From assembly GCA_947259175.1 (NCBI GenBank), contig CAMYKW010000023.1, positions 1 to 46,349 of the forward strand: a stretch of DNA of 46,349 nt, written 5' to 3'. How positions within the stretch are numbered: position 1 is the stretch's first letter; each line of letters opens with the position of its first letter. The translations under genes and the position numbers were made by a program. The notes under the pieces are model-generated. The model saw only the letters and a list, made by a program, of their open reading frames with translations, had not been told where the DNA came from and searched no databases. Positions 35,488 to 41,597 of this stretch are shown in pieces. The stretch comes from an uncultured Gammaproteobacteria bacterium (GTDB lineage Bacteria; Pseudomonadota; Gammaproteobacteria; Arenicellales; JAANXG01).

Positions 35488-36315
35488 ATGCAAGATCAAA
35501 CAATCGGCTTTGTCGGCGGCGGCAATATGGCGCGCAGCCTGGTCGGCGGCTTACTCAATACCGGCTGGCCCCACGACCGGATTTGTATCTCTGAACCGGA
35601 CGCGGAAAAACGTGAATTCTTCGAGCACCAGATGGGTGTTAGGACGACGCCACAGAATGACGCCACCATCGAGGCTTCCGACGTGGTGGTGTTGGCGGTC
35701 AAACCCCAGGTGATGAAGGGTGTGTTGCTGGCGGCGCGGGATGCACTGCAACAACGGCGGCCGCTGGTGGTGTCCATCGTCGCCGGGATTCTTGAACGGG
35801 ACATTCAGCGCTGGTCGGGGGATGGACTGTCGATCGTTCGCGCGATGCCCAATACGCCGGCGCTGGTGGGTTCGGCCGCCACCGGGCTCTACGCCAACGA
35901 ATTAGTGGATGACGCCCAGCGCGACGTGGCTGAATCATTACTGCGCGCAGTCGGCACCACCGTGTGGTTGCACGAGGAGGTATTGCTCGATGTGGTAACC
36001 GCACTGTCCGGCAGCGGACCGGCATATTTCATGTACTTCATGGAGGCGCTGGAACAGGCGGCCATCGAACACGGACTGGCTGCCGACACCGCACGGCTGT
36101 TGACACTGGAGACCTGCCTGGGAGCGGCAAAACTGGCAATCAACAGCGACGAAGACCTGTTGCAACTGCGGCAGCGCGTCACGTCGCCGGGTGGGACCAC
36201 CGAGCGCGCATTACAGGTAATGGATAAGGCAAAGTTGCCGGACATTCTCAATCAAGCATTCGATGCCGCGGTGAAAAGAGCCTCGGAGCTGGGTGAAATC
36301 CTGGGGAGGGACTGA
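35488..36315 (+). CDS. proC: Pyrroline-5-carboxylate reductase
   Basis: Reduces pyrroline-5-carboxylate to proline with NAD(P)H. It has 275 residues from ATG 35488, chosen because MQDQTIGFVGGGNMARSL places the GxGNMA Rossmann motif at the usual distance from the N-terminus. Others are VVLAVKPQVM, IVRAMPNTPALV, the catalytic helix region ALSGSGPAYF, and TSPGGTTERAL. The stop overlaps the yggT start by one base (TGATG). Confidence 0.96.
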   Translation: MQDQTIGFVGGGNMARSLVGGLLNTGWPHDRICISEPDAEKREFFEHQMGVRTTPQNDATIEASDVVVLAVKPQVMKGVLLAARDALQQRRPLVVSIVAGILERDIQRWSGDGLSIVRAMPNTPALVGSAATGLYANELVDDAQRDVAESLLRAVGTTVWLHEEVLLDVVTALSGSGPAYFMYFMEALEQAAIEHGLAADTARLLTLETCLGAAKLAINSDEDLLQLRQRVTSPGGTTERALQVMDKAKLPDILNQAFDAAVKRASELGEILGRD

Positions 36316-36896
36316 TGGGGGGAAATTACTTGGGAAACGCCGGCGTGTTTCTCGTCGACACCGTCTTTGGCCTGTACATACTGCTCGTCCTGTTGCGCTT
36401 CCTGTTCCAGTGGATGCGGGCGGATTTCTATAACCCGATCTCACAGTTCATCGTCACCGTAACCAACCCACCGCTGATTTTCCTGCGTCGGTTCATCCCC
36501 GGAATCTGGGGGCTGGACCTTGCCTCGGTGGGTTTTATGCTGGCTCTGTCGATGGTAAAGGTGTACCTGCTCGCGTGGATGGTCGGCGCGCACCCAAAAT
36601 TCACCGGGGTGCTGGTGTTCTCCATTGGCGAGTTGTTGCAGCTCGCAGTTTACGTATTCATGGTGGCGGTCATCATCCGCGTGGTCCTCAGCTGGATAGG
36701 CCCGCGCACTTACAATCCCGCCGTGGGCTTATTGCACAGCCTCACCGAGCCGGTGATGGCGCCGGCCCGCCGATTGCTTCCGGCGATGGGGGGGCTGGAC
36801 TTATCGCCGATATTGGTATTCATAGCCCTGGGTCTGGTGCTGCGGCTGATCGTGCAGCCGATCCTGGATATCGGCCGGGCACTGGCCATGGCGTGA
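36315..36896 (+). CDS. yggT: YggT family membrane protein
   Basis: A 193-residue inner-membrane protein made of two YGGT repeats. Each half has a hydrophobic helix pair around a motif: LRFLFQWMRADFYNPISQ in the first, RVVLSWIGPRTYNPAVGLL and the cytosolic-facing EPVMAPARRLLP in the second. About four transmembrane segments (~12-34, ~66-90, ~104-126, ~163-186). GGGGAGGG precedes ATG 36315. The role is unclear; in some bacteria YggT affects osmotic or ion balance and septation. Overlaps proC and yggU. Confidence 0.92.
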   Translation: MGGNYLGNAGVFLVDTVFGLYILLVLLRFLFQWMRADFYNPISQFIVTVTNPPLIFLRRFIPGIWGLDLASVGFMLALSMVKVYLLAWMVGAHPKFTGVLVFSIGELLQLAVYVFMVAVIIRVVLSWIGPRTYNPAVGLLHSLTEPVMAPARRLLPAMGGLDLSPILVFIALGLVLRLIVQPILDIGRALAMA

Positions 36897-37195
36897 TTGT
36901 CCGGCCCTGGTATCGATGGGATGGCGTCGATCTGGTTTTACGCGTCAGGGTCCAGCCTGGCAGTCGCAGCGACGACATTCTGGGCGTAAGCGGCGAAACG
37001 CTGCGGGTGCGATTGCGCGCGCCGGCGACGAACGGCAAAGCCAACCAAGCGCTGTTGGCGATGCTGGCGACGGCGTTCTCGGTGCCGACACGTAACGTCA
37101 CCATCCGTCAGGGCCACGGTTCGCGGATCAAGACCGTTGTCGTCGTTAATCCGTCGAAAATACCCGATGCGCTGCAAGCCGGAGAGCAATCCTGA
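36893..37195 (+). CDS. yggU: YggU/DUF167 family protein
   Basis: A small (100-residue) soluble protein of unknown function. LRVRVQPGSRSDDILG, LRVRLRAPATNGKANQALLAMLA and the basic IRQGHGSRIKTVVV are the family signature. The start is GTG 36893, overlapping the yggT stop (GTGA). It is the end of the yggS-proC-yggT-yggU series before a 289-base gap. Confidence 0.9.
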   Translation: MIVRPWYRWDGVDLVLRVRVQPGSRSDDILGVSGETLRVRLRAPATNGKANQALLAMLATAFSVPTRNVTIRQGHGSRIKTVVVVNPSKIPDALQAGEQS

Positions 37196-37484
37196 CGCCA
37201 CGACGGTAACACGCGCCGCACCCGCGACCGATGAATGCACCGTGGCTTTGGACAACCCACCCCTAATTCGACGTCACCGCCACCATGGGATGCAGGCACT
37301 CGCGCACGTGATCGCGTGGGACAATCTCGAGGCCAGACCTACCCCGCAGGTTGACCAGACCCGGATTGGCGTCTAAAAATAATTAAATAGCCAGCAAAAA
37401 GTGGGGGTTCTAGTTGCGGCATGACCCGGCGGCCGCGATCGCCGGGCCGGTTAATATCGTGCCCTTCCCTGATTCCATCTGACC
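37196..37484 (+). other. 289-base gap between yggU and the dynamin-like gene
   Basis: No gene is supported. A GC-rich hairpin (stem CCGGCG 37426-37431 with CGCCGG 37440-37445) lies 40 bases before the next gene, and a TAAAAATAATTAAATAG patch at ~37374-37390 is AT-rich. The hairpin lacks a T-run. An earlier 79-codon frame crossing from yggU has no recognisable content. Confidence 0.5.
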
Positions 37485-39461
37485 ATGCAAGCAAAGGCAG
37501 TCGTCATCGATCTATTTGGGCGTCGTCTGGACGATTACAGCCAATGGCGTAATCGGCTGATGCAGAAAATCCTAGCCTACCAGGCGTGGTACGACAAACA
37601 GGAGCACGACGATGCCGAGTACGAGCTGAGACTGCATGAGTTGGTGGACTCACTGCGAACGGACAAGCTGACCCTGGCGGTGGTCGGCGAATTCTCGCGC
37701 GGCAAGACTGAATTGATCAATGGTCTGTTTTTCTCCGACTACAACCGTCGCCTACTGCCGTCGATGCCCGGTCGGACTACGATGTGTCCAACCGAAATAC
37801 TTTACGACGAAAGGATTGAACCATCGATCCGGCTGCTTCCCATCGAAACCCGCAAATCCGCGCTTACCATCAGCGAGCACAAGAAACATCCGATCAACTG
37901 GACCAAGCTGGTCCTGAACTTGAATTCCGCGGACGAAATGGCGGAAATCCTGCAGGAGACCATGCGCAGCAAGCCGGTGCCCGTGCACCAGGCAAGAGAG
38001 CTGGGGCTGTACACGGACGAGATAATCAACGAATGCAACGCGCAAAAAGACCAGATAGAGGTTCCCGTCTGGCGCCACGCGATCATTAATTTCCCACATC
38101 CGCTGCTCAAGCAAGGTCTGGTGATCCTCGATACACCCGGCCTCAATGCGCTGGGGTCGGAACCTGAATTGACTTTGAACATGCTGCCCGCGGCACACGC
38201 TATTCTGTTTGTGCTCGCGGCGGACACCGGGGTTACAAAGACCGATCTAGAGGTATGGAAACATCACGTGTGCATAGCCACCCGCAGCGCGCGGGCGCGC
38301 CTGGTGACCCTGAACAAAGTGGACACGTTCTGGGACGAACTGTTGAGCGAATCGGAAGTCACCAAATTGATAGATCGCCAGTTGAAGGAGACCGCGCGAT
38401 TGCTGGACGTGGACCGCGACCATATCTTCCCGGTCTCCGCACAGAAGGGGCTCGTCGGCAAGATCAAGAAGAATGGGATGCTGGTGGAAAGAAGCGGCCT
38501 GCCGAGACTGGAGGCGAAACTCTCGGTGGATATCGTTGCACTGAAGCAGAAATTCGTTCGCGACAAGGTCGTCAACGATGCCGGCAACGTCGTGCAGTCC
38601 TCATATAATGAGATTGCGCTATTGGTTGAGAACAAAAGTCGGGAACTCGCCGAAATCAACGCCCTGCAAGGCAAAAGCTCAGAGGCCATCGACGCACTGA
38701 TTGAAAAACTCAAGCAACAAAAACTCGCCCACGAAAAACAAGTTCAGAACTTCAATGTCACACGCAAGATATTGCTGGACCAGCTAAAGCACATGCTGGC
38801 ACGCATGAGCATCAAACGGTTCGACGCATCGCTGTTGGAAACCCGGGATTCCATGCGTGACAGCTGGACAACGAATGGACTGCGCAACAGCATGTCGCGG
38901 TTCTTTACCGAGACCGGCTACACGCTGGATCTAGTTGAAAAAGAAGCGGATGCCATTAGAGATACCGTGGAAAAGATATATCAACATTTTCATACCGGGT
39001 GTGGTTTGCCGAAAACACGGCCAGTGAAATTTTCGGTGTCGCCGTTCGTGCGCCAGTTCGCGCGCCTGCACCGGGAAGCCGATATGTTTCGCGACAGTGC
39101 AGCCATGGTGATGATGGAACAACACTACGTGATCAAGAAATTCTTCTTGTCGATGGCGATCAGCGCAAGGACCATATTTCAAGACTGCCGGACTTCGGCG
39201 CGCAATTGGGGCAAAGCGGTGCTCCGTCCGATCAAGCGGCTCATCGATGAGCATCAAAATACTATCGTTCGGCGCATGGAGAACCTGGAGAAACTGCAGC
39301 ACAACCATTCTTCGCTCACCGACCGGATCAAGGAAACCAAGGAACAGCTTGCGGATCTGAAGAAAAGCGCGGCCGACCTTGATGAGCTGCTGGAGATTCT
39401 CTACGGCGACGCCGAAGCTGACGAACCGGAGGACCGCGTCACCGAACCCGCCTGCGGATAA
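37485..39461 (+). CDS. Dynamin-like GTPase
   Basis: A 658-residue large GTPase. G1 is GEFSRGKT (68-75), the G2 region PGRTTMCPTE (Thr98/99), G3 DTPGL (216-220), G4 NKVD (277-280), G5 SAQKG (~310). Long helical regions follow (~365-440, with coiled coil around EKLKQQKLAHEKQ, and ~580-640), as in bacterial dynamin-like proteins. A hydrophobic but not clearly transmembrane stretch lies near ~545-560 (FFLSMAISARTIF). The start is ATG 37485; no good Shine-Dalgarno is visible. The function could be membrane remodelling or stress tolerance; partner and lipid-binding loop are unknown. It interrupts the yggU-metX neighbourhood known from Pseudomonas. Confidence 0.85.
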   Translation: MQAKAVVIDLFGRRLDDYSQWRNRLMQKILAYQAWYDKQEHDDAEYELRLHELVDSLRTDKLTLAVVGEFSRGKTELINGLFFSDYNRRLLPSMPGRTTMCPTEILYDERIEPSIRLLPIETRKSALTISEHKKHPINWTKLVLNLNSADEMAEILQETMRSKPVPVHQARELGLYTDEIINECNAQKDQIEVPVWRHAIINFPHPLLKQGLVILDTPGLNALGSEPELTLNMLPAAHAILFVLAADTGVTKTDLEVWKHHVCIATRSARARLVTLNKVDTFWDELLSESEVTKLIDRQLKETARLLDVDRDHIFPVSAQKGLVGKIKKNGMLVERSGLPRLEAKLSVDIVALKQKFVRDKVVNDAGNVVQSSYNEIALLVENKSRELAEINALQGKSSEAIDALIEKLKQQKLAHEKQVQNFNVTRKILLDQLKHMLARMSIKRFDASLLETRDSMRDSWTTNGLRNSMSRFFTETGYTLDLVEKEADAIRDTVEKIYQHFHTGCGLPKTRPVKFSVSPFVRQFARLHREADMFRDSAAMVMMEQHYVIKKFFLSMAISARTIFQDCRTSARNWGKAVLRPIKRLIDEHQNTIVRRMENLEKLQHNHSSLTDRIKETKEQLADLKKSAADLDELLEILYGDAEADEPEDRVTEPACG

Positions 39462-39708: not shown

Positions 39709-40851
39709 ATGGCACGCGAATTTCCCAGCGACTCTGTCGGCCTGGTCCAGCCGCGGACGGTCCACTTCGACCAACCGCTTGAGCTTAGCAGCGGTGAGAC
39801 GCTGGCCGGTTACGACATCGTCTTCGAGACCTATGGCGAGTTGAACTCCGCGCGCAGTAACGCGGTGTTGATCTGTCACGCCTTGAGCGGTAGCCACCAT
39901 GCGGCCGGCTACCATGATGCCGATGAGACAAAGCCCGGGTGGTGGGACAACATGGTGGGACCCGGAAAGGTCATCGATACCGACCGCTTTCACGTAGTCA
40001 GCTGCAACAATATCGGCGGCTGCCACGGATCGACCGGCCCCGCCACCATCAACCCCGAAACCGGTATTCCCTACGGTCCGGACTTTCCGATTGTCACCGT
40101 TCCCGATTGGGTGCAAAGCCAGGCGCGGCTCGCGGACACCCTGAATATAGGGCAATGGGCGGCGGTCATCGGCGGAAGCCTGGGCGGGATGCAGGCGATG
40201 CAATGGGCCATCGACTTCCCCGACCGCCTGCGCCATGCGGTGCTGATAGCGGCCGCGCCGAAACTCACCGCGCAAAACATAGCGTTCAACGAAGTCGCCC
40301 GCCAGGCCATCTGCAGCGATCCCGACTTTCACGGCGGCCGGTACTACGAAAACGACAGCGAGCCCTGGCGGGGTCTGCGCTTAGCGCGCATGCTGGGCCA
40401 CATTACGTATTTGTCAGATGATCTGATGAGCGAAAAGTTTGGCCGGGATCTGCGTGAGGGAAGGATCAATTTCGACTACGGGGTGGAGTTTCAGGTCGAG
40501 AGTTATCTTCGTTACCAGGCGGACAGCTTCGCCGGCAGTTTCGACGCCAATACCTATTTACTAATGACCAAGGCGCTGGATTACTTTGATCCCGCTGCGA
40601 AGGCGGGCGGCGTTCTGTCCTCCGCGCTGAAGGGCGTCAACGCCGACTTTATGGTGATCTCGTTTACCAGCGACTGGCGCTTCGCGCCGTATCGTTCGCG
40701 AGAGATCGTTCGCGCCCTGCATGACAATGACTTAAACGTGTCCTATGCGGAGGTGGAATCACATCAAGGCCACGACGCATTCCTGCTCAAGATTCCGCAG
40801 TATCTGGATGTGTTCACCGCCTACATGGACCGGGTCGCCGCCGGTTGCTGA
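39709..40851 (+). CDS. metX: Homoserine O-succinyl/acetyltransferase MetX
   Basis: An alpha/beta-hydrolase-fold acyltransferase activating homoserine for methionine synthesis. 380 residues from ATG 39709 (TTG 39700 would add three). The nucleophile elbow is GGSLGGMQA with Ser157. The acid Asp is in SFTSDWRF and the His in GHDAF near the C-terminus. [14 protein letters not shown] and [12 protein letters not shown] are family landmarks. DWRF, with Arg where acetyl-CoA users often have Leu, suggests succinyl-CoA use as in Pseudomonas (recollected rule, not computed). Upstream, 247 bases contain a small GGCGG/CCGCC hairpin (39590-39603) and no recognised riboswitch. Confidence 0.93.
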
Positions 40852-40865
40852 CCCGGGCTAAGCTC

Positions 40866-41597
40866 ATGTGTGGTCGCTACAACGTCATCCCCAGCGCCGA
40901 GGCGTTCTTGGATGCTTTCGACATCGGTTCTGGACTCGAACGCCTCCCGGACACGCCGGCGTTCAATATCAGTCCGTCGACGGGGAAAAAGACAACCCGG
41001 GTGCCCATTGTCCGCATGCGTGGAGATCAACGGGAACTGGCTATGGTACGCTGGCCCCTCATCCCGTCCTGGGCAAAAGGGCAAGCGGTGCGCTACAGCA
41101 CCGCCAATGCGAAAAGCGAGACCATGGACAGCAAACCCAGCTACCGCCGTGCGTGGCGGCAACGCCGCTGCTTGATTCCCGCCAACGGCTATTACGAATG
41201 GCAGCCGGTGCCCGAACAGAAGCACAAACAACCGCATCACATCCGCATGGTGGACCGGGGATTATTCGCCTTCGGCGGGCTATGGGAGGCGTCGCCCACC
41301 GAACAAGGCGAAGAAATTGAGTCATGCACCATCGTCACCACCGCCGCCAACCCGGCGCTAGCACACATTCACTCGCGCATGCCGTTGATCATACCCAGGA
41401 ACGGATACCGGGATTGGTTGAGCGGCACCACCGACGAGGCCAGGCGATGGATCCACCCTTGTCCGGCGGAGCTGCTGGACGCCTACCCGGTGAGCACTTA
41501 CGTCAACAACCCGGCCCATGACGATCCCCGATGCATCGAACCGCTCGCATCGGGACATCCGGCCGCGGCACGGATCCCGGCTGCTAAGAAATCATGA
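40866..41597 (+). CDS. yedK: SRAP domain protein YedK/HMCES-like, abasic-site DNA crosslinker
   Basis: A 243-residue SRAP protein that forms a covalent thiazolidine with abasic sites in single-stranded DNA through Cys2. Cys2 follows the initiator Met, so the start must be ATG 40866 and not TTG 40845. Catalytic-site residues are all present: Cys2 (MCGRY), Asn34 (FNISPS), Glu111 (NGYYEW) and His169 (HSRMP). WGLIPSWAK-like WPLIPSWAKG and the IPANGYYEW segment are classical. It lies 14 bases after metX and overlaps metW by ATGA, so it is probably co-transcribed with methionine genes, an unexpected context. Confidence 0.93.
   Translation: MCGRYNVIPSAEAFLDAFDIGSGLERLPDTPAFNISPSTGKKTTRVPIVRMRGDQRELAMVRWPLIPSWAKGQAVRYSTANAKSETMDSKPSYRRAWRQRRCLIPANGYYEWQPVPEQKHKQPHHIRMVDRGLFAFGGLWEASPTEQGEEIESCTIVTTAANPALAHIHSRMPLIIPRNGYRDWLSGTTDEARRWIHPCPAELLDAYPVSTYVNNPAHDDPRCIEPLASGHPAAARIPAAKKS

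Follow-up and report, generated by a model that had tools for sequence, protein, structure and literature searches.

A single gene for a dynamin-like GTPase, here called DLP-A, lies between yggU and metX in the window analyzed in this work, a 46,349-nucleotide contig (CAMYKW010000023.1) from an uncultured gammaproteobacterium of the order Arenicellales. A preliminary description of this DNA took the gene for an insertion into a neighborhood otherwise shared with Pseudomonas, and for a lone representative of a class of proteins that often act in pairs. Is DLP-A a recent arrival or an old component of this locus, and what could a dynamin with no partner beside it do?

The open reading frame begins with ATG and holds one Dynamin_N stretch, whose Pfam match passes the curated cut-off (59.8 bits against 27); the identification as a dynamin-like GTPase is therefore upheld. 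The G1 to G4 motifs, including the G2 threonine of the dynamin superfamily, are all found in this single 658-residue gene, as had been noted from the sequence, and their key residues are invariant in a family alignment of 28 sequences that takes in the window protein (Table 1). Between congeners, synonymous change far exceeds amino acid change, indicating that DLP-A is a constrained gene under purifying selection. None of the NCBIfam or PADLOC models claims the protein: the best NCBIfam scores fall far below their cut-offs, and PADLOC gives at best a partial match. The gene is real and conserved and belongs to a known kind, and its family is apparently uncharacterized. Literature searches (YggT with dynamin, dynamin with proC, transposon or fitness screens, PA0390 to PA0392) yielded no study that we recognized as dealing with any family member. 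One published mutant, in a dynamin of Pseudomonas pseudoalcaligenes AVO110, was set aside as functional evidence; that protein is described as a LeoA ortholog whose gene overlaps the one upstream and has a phage integrase nearby (PMC6344628), and by this description we take it to belong to another family. While the family, predicted fold, and chromosomal position of DLP-A are well supported, its cellular role is one that we infer.

Table 1. Features of the DLP-A locus, with positions in the window
Feature	Position	Strand	Evidence or remark
proC	35488..36315	+	TIGR00112 above cut-off
yggT, integral membrane YGGT family, conserved upstream neighbor	36315..36896	+	PF02325, 7.7e-37
yggU (DUF167), GTG start	36893..37195	+	TIGR00251, 1.6e-24; PF02594
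DLP-A, dynamin-like GTPase, 658 aa	37485..39461	+	Dynamin_N, 4.3e-16; AlphaFold2 model and fold comparison; dN/dS 0.04-0.11
G1 P-loop GEFSRGKT, residues 68-75	37686..37709	+	E69, S71, G73, K74 invariant in 28 aligned sequences
G2 GRTTMC with T99, residues 96-101	37770..37787	+	G96, T99, C101 invariant in 28 aligned sequences
G3 DTPG, residues 216-219	38130..38141	+	D216-G219 invariant in 28 aligned sequences
G4 NKVD, residues 277-280	38313..38324	+	N277, K278, D280 invariant in 28 aligned sequences
Putative trunk-tip/lipid-contact region, residues 507-545	39003..39119	+	Short helix between two long trunk helices in the model; role putative
metX, downstream neighbor here and in a minority of relatives	39709..40851	+	NF047916 above cut-off

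Structure prediction, proposed in the preliminary description as a check, gave a BDLP/mitofusin-like fold with a basic region that we take for the trunk tip. The AlphaFold2 model (pLDDT 82.7, pTM 0.73) contains the long helices that had been claimed (residues 339-394, 399-440, 443-459/463-506, and 546-606), and a helical neck and trunk formed from the N- and C-terminal flanks. In Foldseek, the top match was BDLP (2.7e-17), with a whole-chain TM score of 0.43 and an rmsd of 14.5 Å. A second look at the Foldseek matches with VIA-align aligned the model along its length to BDLP 2j69 (Z of 22.7 over 531 residues, rmsd of 6.6 Å), and mitofusins scored within 1 unit of Z. The fit is to remote relatives (about 15% identity). 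The BDLP/mitofusin type is characterized by two hinged helical bundles and a lipid-binding tip; DLP-A agrees with it in overall fold, while its candidate tip region is charged. On the model, the putative tip falls at residues 507 to 545; the stretch from 507 to 562 carries a net charge of +6 and is net positive in all 28 aligned sequences. By hydropathy, DLP-A has no transmembrane segment, its best 19-residue value (1.52) lying in the G domain, as does the maximum across the 28 sequences (1.71). The relative L060 has its hydropathy maximum, 1.47, just after the tip region. Against this tip assignment, which comes from the model, the lipid-binding tip of Campylobacter jejuni Cj-DLP2 is reported to need a hydrophobic motif (PMC6104087).

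The flanks and gaps given in the preliminary description are correct. Upstream of DLP-A, yggS, proC, yggT, and yggU run in the same direction, the last ending at 37195, 289 bases before DLP-A; after a gap of 247 bases, metX starts with ATG at 39709, followed by an SOS-associated-peptidase-like gene and metW. The opposite strand carries two pilT/pilU-family genes upstream and genes for an AmpG-family transporter and exodeoxyribonuclease III downstream. Judging from its sequence, the gene at 40845 to 41597, between metX and metW, looks like a YedK/HMCES-type SOS-associated peptidase. DLP-A has a GC content of 0.54 and a GC3 of 0.69, against 0.55 to 0.61 and 0.69 to 0.80 in four measured neighbors. 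Scans around the gene found one promoter-like site (37351 to 37380) against 1.5 expected and three terminator-like sites against 3.0 expected, no more than chance in either case.

The idea of an insertion relied on a presumed Pseudomonas arrangement without a dynamin. The PrrF RNA, which we take to mark Pseudomonas, was found over the cut-off in eight of eight tested genomes of family group f141 and in none of seven others (one of these, G436, matches below the cut-off); f141 is thus presumably the Pseudomonas family. Here, a single copy of the gene is present in 73 of 119 genomes, and it follows yggT in all eight loci read (seven newly read, plus that of G229), with metX and metW directly downstream in seven of them. 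The premise therefore fails, and the presumed arrangement fits only gene-less f141 genomes, of which there are 46. In nine genomes of this group without a family match, no dynamin was found at metX; the 1.5 kb upstream of metX contain yggT in eight, yggU in seven, and both in six. These nine loci (L231 to L239), with metX and yggT and/or yggU in place, form a natural presence/absence set for phenotype comparison.

The window genome carries a second family member on another contig, with 40% identity to DLP-A; we refer to this copy as B and to the window copy as A. B is flanked by mutM and a gamma-glutamyltransferase gene, and coaD, ftsY, and ftsE lie farther along. Its model (pTM 0.59) shows the main elements in the same order as in A, and similar fold matches that are likewise remote (about 15% identity). 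Of 100 relatives, 43 have a match, and 11 of the 12 relatives in the window genome's own family have an A-type copy, the exception (G009) being a 77% complete genome. In a sample of the class comprising 281 near-complete genomes, 76 match the A profile and 78 the B profile; the 205 genomes with no A match, along with the gene-less part of f141, indicate that the DLP-A family is dispensable over evolution. In a sample of the phylum, 24 of 249 genomes match, all in the same class (the number of the 249 from outside the class is unstated). A scan of named genomes gave 578 confirmed stretches, and the records with the best 80 of them bear titles of Gammaproteobacteria, Betaproteobacteria, a genus or order within either, or just Proteobacteria or Pseudomonadota; the sole exception is a record titled Chitinophaga, which groups among betaproteobacterial rows. 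No match was found in the phage records searched and no relative was confirmed in the viral contigs, while plasmid records gave only two matches, both weak and to other dynamins. DLP-A is therefore not a lineage oddity; its family is broad across Gammaproteobacteria.

We read the gene order around 177 dynamin ORFs at 175 loci, a mixture of chosen and best-scoring places with at least one duplicate contig (L061, L078). Of these ORFs, 97 stand at the A position, after proC, yggT, or yggU (any of them among the four genes upstream, strand disregarded); 53 stand at the B position (mutM among the three genes upstream, or coaD, fdx, or rsmD among the four downstream); and 27 lie elsewhere. The 55 loci from the class sample, hand-picked from matching genomes at one to five per family group, comprise 40 at A, 9 at B, and 6 at other positions, and the 40 span 31 family groups. 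On a tree of 175 rows, from which L193 was omitted as probably not of the family and in which two same-label ORFs of one locus were merged, the A (97 rows) and B (53 rows) positions are separated by a single change. This figure disregards the 25 "other" rows; when they are given a label of their own, the tree needs 14 changes, because 10 of them lie on the A side. That side comprises 107 rows, five of which run to a contig edge, with a support of 99 (SH-aLRT from quick searches, with several long branches flagged). In an earlier tree of 115 rows under a mixture model, the A-position rows fall inside one supported set of 62 rows. Since a single change separates them, the A and B positions both look ancient.

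A few members depart from these two places. Those of family f10 (L065, L066, L070, L049, L050, and L071), single-copy and placed by the first tree on a long branch, adjoin a gene that by sequence resembles penicillin-binding protein 1, mostly still near ferredoxin-coaD-rsmD-ftsY. The most divergent members, in family f8 (L051, L067, L068, and L069), lie beside what appears to be a tRNA nucleotidyltransferase gene (cca), a third recurrent position. The single-contig genome G163 has three members (L181, L182, and L183): one follows yggT-yggU, one follows mutM, and the remaining one, at a different place, still groups with the A side of the tree.

Within the A position, the two flanks are not equally constant. 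A yggT or yggU gene is labeled upstream in 94 of the 106 A-side loci fetched, whereas metX or metW appears within the first three downstream genes in only 24 of the 106; DLP-A thus tracks yggT more than its other flank. Measured from the most upstream start codon, the median spacing is 125.5 bp from yggU (n = 42, four at 30 bp or less) and 259 bp from yggT (n = 53, none at 30 bp or less). Since the spacing mostly exceeds 30 bp, tight cotranscription with yggT or yggU is not indicated, and the adjacency to yggT might simply be retained synteny. A recent insertion of DLP-A was rejected, given a GC and GC3 near those of its neighbors, an old place, and the absence of the gene beside an intact metX in nine relatives. 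According to the preliminary description, its reading would fall if the gene were conserved here across the order with an assigned housekeeping role; conservation extends well beyond the order, and no assigned role was found.

Most bacterial dynamins are described as side-by-side operon pairs, with heterotypic pairing fundamental for function (PMC6104087). The window has no adjacent partner, as had been stated, and this is the rule in the family, since neighboring dynamin copies occur in just 2 of 175 loci, L081 and L144. DLP-A is not alone in its genome, however, given the B copy. Beyond A and B, a Dynamin_N search of the window genome found no third full-span dynamin (a match over at least 140 of the 168 profile positions); four other matches cover 45 positions or fewer. 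Among 40 genomes chosen for holding the family and searched with this profile, 29 have exactly one full-span protein. The remaining 11 carry between two and four; six of these genomes include at least one from another family, which could serve the family member as an in-trans partner. The tandem members at L081 (5624 to 9986) and L144 (5868 to 9938) are possible duplications and offer a comparison for paired dynamins. L144 is titled Chitinophaga yet lies among betaproteobacterial rows, and hence may be a binning error.

How does DLP-A compare with known dynamins? BDLP1 of Nostoc punctiforme (2j68, 2j69) is its best full-length fold match, a single chain of similar length with the same order of G domain, neck, and trunk; what sets DLP-A apart, besides the low identity, is a basic tip region and the lack of any 19-residue stretch hydrophobic enough for a membrane segment. 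Cj-DLP1 and Cj-DLP2 share the fold class (5oxf and 5owv are among the matches) but are heterotypic and encoded side by side in one operon (PMC6104087), unlike nearly all loci of the DLP-A family. LeoA, of the LeoABC system, is dynamin-like as well and gives the best PADLOC match (1.3e-8, best stretch at residues 31 to 81) and a fold match (4aur); yet the NCBIfam LeoA model NF041922 scores 19.5 bits against a cut-off of 325, and LeoA is reported on a pathogenicity island (PMC4159319), whereas DLP-A lies in conserved housekeeping synteny. Escherichia coli RdcA (CrfC, YjdA) is, like DLP-A, a gammaproteobacterial dynamin-like GTPase with no dynamin gene annotated beside it, but it has 742 residues, matches DLP-A over only about 120 (blastp E of 0.012), and adjoins rdcB. 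Bacillus subtilis DynA, described as a membrane-surveillance dynamin (PMC8844932), is a possible functional analogue; it consists of two dynamins fused in one chain (PMC6104087) where DLP-A has a single Dynamin_N stretch, and the DynA model NF052648 gives DLP-A 29.8 bits against a cut-off of 1600.

As our best explanation, held tentatively and with a little under an even chance of being right, DLP-A, an A-type member of an apparently uncharacterized gamma- and betaproteobacterial dynamin family kept at one chromosomal place, would be a peripheral GTPase of the inner membrane that works alone as homo-oligomers and serves membrane maintenance, with links to YggT and to osmotic or heat stress. 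The GTP cycle, membrane binding, homo-oligomerization, YggT link, and stress role that we infer would fit together as follows. DLP-A would work as a single-gene BDLP/mitofusin-like GTPase; its GTP-bound G domains would dimerize, as the fold and motifs suggest, its neck and trunk would open, and its basic trunk tip would bind the cytoplasmic membrane at the inner leaflet, with no transmembrane anchor. Homo-oligomers may tether, seal, or remodel the membrane and so maintain it during osmotic, heat, or envelope stress, and the neighborhood points to a functional link with YggT. The yggS-proC(proH)-yggT-yggU operon has been discussed as an adaptation to salt and osmotic conditions (PMC6396713), and PA0392 to PA0394, which are yggT, proC, and yggS (PMC3922391), are reported as RpoH-induced 2.3- to 7.5-fold in Pseudomonas aeruginosa (PMC9866376); the osmotic and RpoH data pertain to the neighbor genes of DLP-A only. 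DynA and IniA provide precedents for membrane roles of bacterial dynamins (PMC8844932, PMC6715688). Of the roles first proposed, membrane repair or maintenance remains the best reading, division is possible, and phage defense is disfavored for a native syntenic gene without a phage match.

A division or nucleoid-segregation factor, acting at the division site with YggT (a member of the YlmG family) as a counterpart of the ylmE-sepF-ylmG cluster, would account for the conserved adjacency to proC-yggT. It would also agree with the presence of ylmG in the Gram-positive division cluster, with the disturbed nucleoid structure and division reported after a cyanobacterial ylmG deletion (PMC2923531), and with the action of Streptomyces DynA and DynB in division (PMC6104087). 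We nonetheless consider it unlikely: yggT is kept within 1.5 kb upstream of metX in eight of nine f141 loci without the dynamin, the patchy absence of DLP-A would be unusual for a core division protein, and the same sources report no apparent effect of ylmG inactivation in Streptococcus pneumoniae (PMC2923531) and no obvious division defect in a Cj-DLP knockout (PMC6104087). About equally doubtful is that A and B of the window genome form a heterotypic pair like Cj-DLP1 and Cj-DLP2, but from unlinked genes. The genome does have two family members as its only full-span dynamins, and both types occur in 11 of 12 relatives of the same genus and family. By the bit scores of the two profiles, however, just 6 of the 78 class genomes with a match combine a clear A with a clear B; the most frequent situation is A by itself, and several genomes have only B, so neither type generally needs the other.

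That DLP-A is a soluble signaling GTPase, acting like RdcA on a partner protein rather than on the membrane, seems quite improbable. RdcA is a soluble dynamin-like GTPase that acts on a membrane protein (PMC6510439), DLP-A lacks a transmembrane segment, and YggT could serve as such a partner; yet the two dynamins are barely similar, and where the partner gene rdcB adjoins rdcA, no constant soluble partner gene stands beside the DLP-A family at the loci read. An anti-phage function is less probable still, and we give it very little weight. Phage resistance is reported for B. subtilis DynA (PMC8844932), and the weak LeoA similarity of DLP-A lies in the same direction, but DLP-A shows neither a strong match to a defense model nor a mobile or defense locus. 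Its fixed chromosomal site, with one A/B change on the tree, its housekeeping neighbors, and the results from phage, viral, and plasmid records all argue against it.

Overall, what stands out is not an insertion; it is a dynamin family that is broad and old, mostly lacks pairing, and keeps a constant neighbor. Mostly one gene in a constant place across many families of the class, the DLP-A family represents a broad exception to the view that most bacterial dynamins work in pairs. The functionality of a lone dynamin becomes directly testable, for example in gene-bearing Pseudomonas relatives, and YggT, a widespread protein, gains a candidate partner. Going further, DLP-A and YggT might constitute a two-component module that remodels the inner membrane in Gammaproteobacteria, YggT acting as membrane anchor or receptor for a homo-oligomeric dynamin that works alone, an idea that we regard as speculative and rather unlikely. 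If true, this module would be the proteobacterial counterpart of the SepF-YlmG neighborhood, and a class of bacterial dynamin that needs no heterotypic partner.
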